33,037 nt of DNA from Myxococcales bacterium (GTDB taxonomy: Bacteria; Myxococcota_A; Polyangia; Polyangiales; Polyangiaceae): NCBI GenBank assembly GCA_003154095.1, contig PMCK01000562.1, positions 19,902 through 52,938 of the forward strand. The letters run 5' to 3'. The notes beneath the pieces are model-generated. The model made no database searches and had not been told where the DNA came from. It saw nothing but the letters and a program-made list of their open reading frames with translations. Every line of letters starts with the position of its first letter. The first letter of the stretch is position 1. A program made the position numbers and the translations under genes. Positions 25,066 through 25,859 of this stretch are shown in pieces.

Positions 25066-25392
25066 CTACCTCTTCCCCTCAACCAACCGTACCAAGGTTC
25101 CAGTTATACGATTGATCAAAGCCAAAAACTCCGAGTCCAGAGTGCGCACATATCCAAACGCGCGAGCCACCTCCAAACATGAGTAACTCTCCCGCATGGA
25201 ACCGAGCGCGGTATGATAACGAACAGTCCGCAATTCGCCGCGCGAATACATCCCCTCCCCAAGATTCAAGGCTACGCTGCTAGACGCGCGCCGCAGCTGA
25301 CGCCCCAAGTCCCGATCCCGCCGCTCAATCTGGGCGAGTAACGGACGCAACGCGGCGATGAATTCAAGAACAACTGGGTAAATCTTGAGCAT
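25066..25392 (-). CDS. Four-helix-bundle (S23/Avd-like) protein
   Basis: 108 aa from ATG 25392, which has a very strong ribosome-binding site GAGGAGG 7 nt upstream; the longer frame to 25545 is discarded. The sequence is almost all helix (MLKIYPVVLEFIAALRPLLA, then RRDRDLGRQLRRASSSVALN). The family hallmark SSVALNLGEG is followed by helix three (YHTALGSMRESYSCLEVARA). Such proteins are encoded in 23S rRNA intervening sequences and, as relatives, serve as the Avd protein of diversity-generating retroelements. No reverse transcriptase or rRNA is in this window. The leader holds a cloverleaf-like fold (25438-25507). The fold implies nucleic-acid binding, but the role is unknown. Confidence 0.82.
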   Translation of the reverse strand: MLKIYPVVLEFIAALRPLLAQIERRDRDLGRQLRRASSSVALNLGEGMYSRGELRTVRYHTALGSMRESYSCLEVARAFGYVRTLDSEFLALINRITGTLVRLVEGKR

Positions 25393-25437
25393 TGGGTACC
25401 TCCTCAAAAAACACCCCACCCACAGCCGGCGCGCGCA

Positions 25438-25507
25438 GGGCGTGTCAAGGAGGCGAAGCCCCGCGAAGCGGCAAGCTGGCAAAGCCAGCGCAGTCCTTGA
25501 TACGCCC
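25438..25507. other. Cloverleaf-folding structured element upstream of the four-helix-bundle gene
   Basis: A 14-bp outer stem (GGGCGTGTCAAGGA at 25438-25451 with TCCTTGATACGCCC at 25494-25507, one G-T wobble) encloses three stacked hairpins. These are GGC-GAA-GCC (25452-25460), CCGC-GAA-GCGG (25461-25471) and GCTGGC-AAA-GCCAGC (25475-25489). The whole makes a compact four-way junction of 70 nt. It sits 46 bp upstream of the four-helix-bundle ATG, so it would lie in the 5' leader of that mRNA. The wobble pair is stable only if the plus strand is transcribed. It may be a structured RNA, a mobile palindromic repeat or a protein-binding site. I know no named family for it. Confidence 0.6.
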
Positions 25508-25555
25508 GAGCACGACGGTAAAATCAAAAAGCCAAGGAGAGGCAACTCTAACTGG

Positions 25556-25726
25556 GGTCAGTGTGGAGTGTGCAGCGCGCAGGGTCAAAGCGGTGTGGTT
25601 TGGGGTTTGGGTGGTGTGGATCAAGGCAACGCGCAACCACCCATCCCACAACCCAAATCCCACGCCGCTCCCACAACACAAAACCCACCCCACAAACCAC
25701 TTGCCACTGCACCCTGCACTCTGACC
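25556..25726. repeat. 171-bp element with 20-bp terminal inverted repeats and a G-quadruplex motif
   Basis: The ends GGTCAGTGTGGAGTGTGCAG (25556-25575) and CTGCACCCTGCACTCTGACC (25707-25726) are inverted repeats with 3 mismatches in 20. The left half of the interior is G/T-rich (GTGTGGTTTGGGGTTTGGG) and the right half C/A-rich, so the whole can fold into one long imperfect hairpin. On the minus strand, positions 25640-25661 read GGG-ATTT-GGG-TTGT-GGG-AT-GGG, a perfect G-quadruplex motif. No coding capacity. It could be a MITE-like mobile remnant. No flanking target duplication was recognised. Confidence 0.6.
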
Positions 25727-25859
25727 ACAATTACTAGCTGGGGCGCACAGCCACCAAAACGGGTGCCGCGAAACATTTTTAGTCGCCGAAGATCAGGATT
25801 GAGATGCGATTTCGCAAGAACATCGAGGGACTGGTGTCAAAATTGGGCTGGAGTCGAGA

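Follow-up and report, generated by a model that had tools for sequence, protein, structure and literature searches.

A covarying cloverleaf before a four-helix-bundle gene of a Myxococcales bacterium, the probable head of a small mobile single-gene unit

The intervening sequences (IVSs) of 23S rRNA, which carry an open reading frame (ORF) for the S23p protein in Leptospira and Coxiella, have been described as selfish, and S23p is without known function (PMC4990558). That IVSs are mobile was proposed decades ago, with no mechanism given (PMC4990558). Here, we analyzed a stretch of 33,037 nucleotides from a Myxococcales bacterium of the family Polyangiaceae (assembly GCA_003154095.1, contig PMCK01000562.1, C118:19902-52938 in our numbering; hereafter, the window), in which a cloverleaf-shaped element precedes a gene for a four-helix-bundle (4HB) protein. 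The 23S IVS is the nearest known system to the units described below, with which it shares a PF05635/TIGR02436 protein and an inverted-repeat stem-loop accompanied by a single 4HB ORF. However, the present units are intergenic and not in 23S rRNA (the one in the window lies between protein genes, and Rfam gave no rRNA there), and therefore they were not filed as IVSs. Their head is located upstream of the gene start or overlaps it instead of enclosing the gene, and they possess a tandem tract, three head types and, in Polyangium, a sigma-factor gene.

Other systems share part of this design. Like the repetitive extragenic palindromic (REP) sequences and REPINs associated with RAYT (TnpA-REP), the present heads are short palindromes scattered over the genome, some copies being linked to a gene and others not; however, the linked protein is a 4HB (or DUF559) protein and not an HUH Y1 transposase, and there is one upstream head instead of flanking REPs. 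IS200/IS605 elements are likewise small and mobile, with an imperfect hairpin conserved at one terminus, but our unit is without TnpA/TnpB and its ends are repeat tracts. In diversity-generating retroelements (DGRs), Avd is a 4HB accessory protein acting with structured RNA. Unlike in DGRs, no reverse transcriptase (RT), template repeat or variable repeat was seen next to the 4HB gene; for RTs, this applies to the downstream DNA read beside 4HB genes, apart from an RT/maturase-like fragment at one locus (L079, see below), and no genome-wide search was made. The terminal inverted repeats of Drosophila foldback elements are built of short tandem repeats, from which the present units differ in being bacterial, in their hexamer units and in having a conserved internal cloverleaf and a 4HB gene. 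A prior description of the unit was not found in the open-access literature; subscription papers were not searched.

Based on the results below, the cloverleaf is probably a conserved structure heading a small mobile unit with a single gene, with the hairpin as a cis-acting handle and the 4HB protein binding it. Three parts make up the unit: a tandem tract of short period, a structured head and the 4HB gene. Heads of types A and B directly precede the ribosome-binding site and start codon, and type C heads overlap them.

The sequence-only reading of the window had proposed a 70-nt cloverleaf between a very strong ribosome-binding site and a 171-bp inverted-repeat element, in the leader of a 4HB gene. 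The following features were located there:

25424-25524, minus strand: full type A cloverleaf head, matched by the covariance model R1 at 115 bits
25438-25507, minus strand: core cloverleaf with a 14-bp stem and three hairpins, by folding
25399-25405, minus strand: Shine-Dalgarno sequence GAGGAGG, 6 nt before the ATG, by sequence
25066-25392, minus strand: 4HB protein gene, 108 aa, TIGR02436/PF05635 family, type A, by profile matches
25549-25575, no strand assigned: inverted-repeat arm of GTGCAG-type short units, with similar DNA upstream of most type A copies, by sequence comparison
25707-25733, no strand assigned: second inverted-repeat arm, 81% complementary, by sequence comparison

Folding bore out the cloverleaf. 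On the plus strand, the 70 nt form a 14-bp outer stem and three small hairpins with GAA, GAA and AAA loops at -41.8 kcal/mol (z -5.7), which was matched by none of 200 shuffles. Because the 4HB gene is on the minus strand, the mRNA-sense strand is the other one, and its fold reaches -38.1 kcal/mol (z -4.3). In the comparison of copies, a further outer helix around the cloverleaf (CCGTCG..TGC with GCG..CGCCGG) covaries, and therefore the conserved element is larger than first seen, about 101 nt (about 25424-25524). Its gene-proximal end is 31 nt from the 4HB start codon (25392-25390; the stop is at 25066). The strong ribosome-binding site is indeed present. The inverted arms beside the cloverleaf also exist, but they are imperfect (27 nt, 81% complementary, folding z -1.6) with low-complexity DNA between them, and a precise long palindrome of 171 bp was ruled out on these grounds. 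Rfam gave no matches over the gathering score in the window, where the cloverleaf is no known Rfam RNA. The 4HB protein belongs to its family by matches above the curated cut-offs of both TIGR02436 (43.4 bits, cut-off 24) and PF05635 (38.5 bits, cut-off 33.8, E 1e-9), as the first reading had it; XCC0516 (2gsc) is a relative with a solved structure.

The genome containing the window is a fragmented draft of 8.66 Mb (83.6% complete). BLAST found 10 copies of the 70-mer in this genome and the covariance model 11. Eight of the 10 BLAST copies adjoin one of the genome's 28 TIGR02436 genes, with a chance probability of about 2e-29. Across Polyangiaceae, a family of soil bacteria, the type A model R1 has matches in 36 of 108 genomes (19 of 48 genera). 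Outside Polyangium, linkage was counted at one best locus per genome, with gene-start coordinates in other genomes being approximate: among the 27 best R1 loci with room, a 4HB gene starts 24-56 nt after the head in 18, an N-truncated 4HB gene is found at +191 in one, a C-terminal remnant in one and nothing in seven. In Polyangium (the genus of G084-G089), 29 of 32 copies have a 4HB gene, and a copy is also present in the named record Polyangium sp. 6x1. TIGR02436 genes occur in 33 of the 36 R1-positive genomes versus 37 of the 72 others (p 3e-5), and the link between head and gene is kept down to 49% identity of the 4HB protein (L038). The linkage in the window's genome, the family and Polyangium rules out a solo repeat without a gene link as the general case. 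Thus, the idea that the element always precedes S23/Avd-like genes holds for most copies but not for gene-less ones or for type C heads before DUF559 genes, and a high-copy palindrome without a link to the gene family is not what most genomes contain, although Sorangium-type genomes hold gene-less copies.

Upstream DNA is readable for 25 of the 28 TIGR02436 genes in the window's genome, and all 25 carry a head of type A (8), B (6) or C (11). The proteins of these 25 genes form three subfamilies, and each subfamily has a head type to itself. Head A is the cloverleaf, wholly upstream of the gene. Head B, also wholly upstream, consists of an upstream hairpin and a covarying hairpin that hides the Shine-Dalgarno sequence. 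Head C is a 127-nt stem-loop, the 3' arm of which holds the ATG and the first codons; changes in this coding arm (MHNPQSS, MHKAMSN, MHTPLRS) are accompanied by changes in the 5' arm. Type C was found in 25 and type B in four of the 108 genomes. A phylum-level search, whose strict filters may have missed copies, located type C in one further family of the order as well; there too, the 3' arm includes the ATG and the genes are 4HB-like. A GGGTTC-type tract lies upstream of one of these copies (L298). When 4HB leaders were sampled across 25 loci, 10 had z < -3 versus 2% of control windows, so a structured leader on every 4HB gene was ruled out.

Compensatory change holds the head in pairing register. 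In type A (65 distinct sequences), 94.5% of cells are paired and 26 of 33 pairs show double changes; the double-change cells number 252 versus 62 in shuffles, none of 500 shuffles being as high, and slid controls reach 30-51% paired. In type C (10 sequences), 94.6% of cells are paired and double changes affect 18 of 37 pairs, which was matched by none of 500 shuffles and is far above slid controls (of the alignments, A4 was fitted to the model and is therefore biased toward it, and A6 was made by sequence alone, its structure being derived from A6 itself). The main helices contain about as few G-U as A-C cells (5 versus 5 in type A helix 1, 5 versus 7 in type C), and therefore the RNA sense strand is not singled out as the selected form. 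A proof of the RNA sense from G-U tolerance was dropped: the excess over all type A pairs (44 versus 11) comes mainly from side hairpins of uncertain alignment and is not seen in the main helices. A DNA hairpin, or correction between the arms, fits the pairing data equally well.

In several complete units of Polyangium, the order is a hexamer tract, the cloverleaf, the 4HB gene, a terminator, a hairpin, a sigma-factor gene and, often, an inverted hexamer tract. The upstream tracts include (GCGGGA)n, (GCGCAA)n and others. By an automatic criterion, 30 of the 32 Polyangium copies possess a period-6 tract whose end lies 6-50 nt upstream of the head, versus eight tracts in 58 kb of other loci. The sigma factor resembles the extracytoplasmic function (ECF) kind, with sigma-70 regions 2 and 4 (PF04542, PF08281), and in several units the inverted tracts enclose both it and the 4HB gene. 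Left and right tracts resemble each other more within a unit (mean 0.79) than between units (0.42), with a permutation p of 0.017 from six units only. The counterpart of the tract in the window's genome is weaker: most type A copies are preceded by GTGCAG-type repeats, arranged as an imperfect inverted repeat. The 4HB gene is the only gene common to type A units. At orthologous insertions in different Polyangium species (L093/L102 and L079/L099), the site is kept while the tract hexamers differ, and therefore the tract turns over quickly.

Several loci show variations of this layout. In L074 and L085, 15-nt repeats form an array downstream of the sigma gene, and the other strand of this array reads as pentapeptide-type repeats. 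By inspection, an IS3-type two-ORF transposase pair lies between two tract fragments upstream of a type A head in G000:C50 (L006:200-1390), and a VapBC-like toxin-antitoxin pair with a small gene lies between two direct tract copies upstream of a type A unit in G000:C87 (L004:170-1300). The latter suggests that tract pairs may carry other cargo. Inside the unit at L079 (G084:C27), most of the 4HB gene is missing, and its place just after the head is taken by an RT/maturase-like fragment (GFTHYWGRT..., recognized by eye, with no Pfam match). In four Polyangium loci (L087, L088, L098 and L101), the 4HB genes break off near codon 55, where they are joined to a common sequence, TTTCGCCTAAAGAACGCTAACG...GTTGACCTTTCGCCAAACGCAC, that resembles the terminus of a different element. 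In addition, a 26-27-bp repeat, TGGTTCTTCAACCACTCCTCGGCGTC, forms in-frame insertions in type C 4HB genes and is also found downstream of another 4HB gene (L035:303-325, L033:1-16, L021:1919-1941).

Mobility was assessed by a one-sided multi-flank test, in which the DNA to the left of six G084 insertions was traced to its counterparts in four congeners (G085-G088). Among 21 orthologous sites, one was occupied and 20 were without the element, which favours gain in G084 rather than loss. The empty sites L277, L283 and L284, corresponding to the L072 insertion, run directly into the next gene. At L279 the left tract is fused to the inverted tract with no unit, and at L274 only the end of the 4HB gene remains. 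Defining a colinear empty site by joined flanks was set aside in favour of the multi-flank test: it was uninformative at L090, and the L080 site, although empty in five congeners, coincides with a rearrangement breakpoint. The copy number in the genus ranges from 1 to 15, and decay forms occur in the window's genome, such as a head with the last 25 codons (L039) and a solo head (L040). From these comparisons, mobility of the unit on an evolutionary scale is well supported. Between the mobile unit and the protein-RNA module suggested at first, the former is backed by the linkage and the empty sites, whereas the latter is only compatible with the data, given the equal rarity of G-U and A-C in the main helices.

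We suggest the following scheme for the unit. By analogy with the hairpin ends of IS200/IS605- or REP-type elements, the hairpin would be a cis-acting handle recognized when the unit is copied or inserted. The 4HB protein would bind such a structure and could act in mobility or its control. In types B and C the head covers the region where translation starts, and judging by this position and the predicted pairing, it probably limits expression of the gene in its own unit as well. The unit does not encode the enzyme for DNA cleavage and joining, which presumably works in trans. More tentatively, these hairpin-headed single-gene units with short-tandem-repeat ends might represent a new class of bacterial mobile elements, in which S23/IVP 4HB proteins (and DUF559 nucleases in sister units) would be mobility or copy-control proteins and the head both a mobility handle and a translational lock.

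Several observations weigh against this scheme. The unit contains no transposase, recombinase or RT, and no target-site duplication is visible at its ends; none could be defined because the ends are short tandem-repeat tracts that change fast. The leaders of 15 of the 25 sampled 4HB genes are unstructured, and part of the empty sites could be losses and not gains. Furthermore, five type C matches outside the window's genome are followed by a DUF559 gene (the three of these genes that were tested match PF04480 at E < 1e-25). The window's genome has 25 DUF559 genes, and those read have long palindromic heads; a type C model based only on the heads of 4HB genes found 14 of 17 DUF559 loci at E < 1e-5, which argues against strict one-to-one recognition. 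Sorangium-type genomes carry 87-94-nt heads without a gene (of these, G100 is not among the genomes listed with a TIGR02436 match). Gene-less heads are present in genomes without a TIGR02436 match, such as G062, and therefore the 4HB protein cannot be needed there now. Heads before DUF559 genes or before no gene thus make the head a module able to serve other genes or none.

These same heads suit a palindrome similar to REPs or to miniature inverted-repeat transposable elements, mobilized by an unrelated transposase, with the 4HB and DUF559 genes as passengers. The gene-less Sorangium-type copies and the solo L040, the presence of heads before two unrelated gene families and the lack of an enzyme in the unit all agree with it. 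However, most genomes have the head mainly with a gene and at a fixed spacing, and the head type tracks the 4HB subfamily within one genome, whereas a pure passenger should be lost more often; we consider this explanation rather unlikely.

It is somewhat less likely still that the head is an autogenous translational operator, that is, an mRNA leader through which the 4HB protein represses its own translation, the multi-copy spread being a side effect of ordinary duplication and transposition. The heads are always directly before or over the start, the type B hairpin hides the Shine-Dalgarno sequence, and the type C AUG is paired in the 127-nt stem-loop. The predicted mean unpaired probability of the window from Shine-Dalgarno to AUG is 0.08-0.42 in types B and C, and the relative Avd acts with RNA in DGRs. 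In contrast, the type A Shine-Dalgarno sequence is only partly hidden (predicted unpaired probability 0.27-0.57), G-U cells are as rare as A-C cells in the main helices whereas a selected RNA should tolerate G-U, and a cognate operator is at odds with gene-less copies and with heads common to DUF559 genes.

Template-switch correction of quasi-palindromes during replication, which would maintain the pairing in a functionless element, accounts for pairing that is almost purely Watson-Crick, with wobble intermediates scarce and double transversions frequent, but it is improbable in view of the positions near-invariant across genera (GTGCTCG, TCAAGG/CCTTGA, GCGCG), the kept mismatches that correction would erase and the gene link retained in so diverged a locus as L038.

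The S23/IVP 4HB proteins, which are without known function, have long been suspected of being selfish, and the probable mobile unit gives this family a defined, testable element. Since the unit is free-standing and multi-copy, has a covarying head and occupied and empty sites in congeners, and is found in cultured hosts (Polyangium and Sorangium), the question of IVS mobility becomes directly testable. In addition, the occurrence of one head type on both 4HB and DUF559 nuclease genes suggests a common principle of mobility or control across two orphan families.
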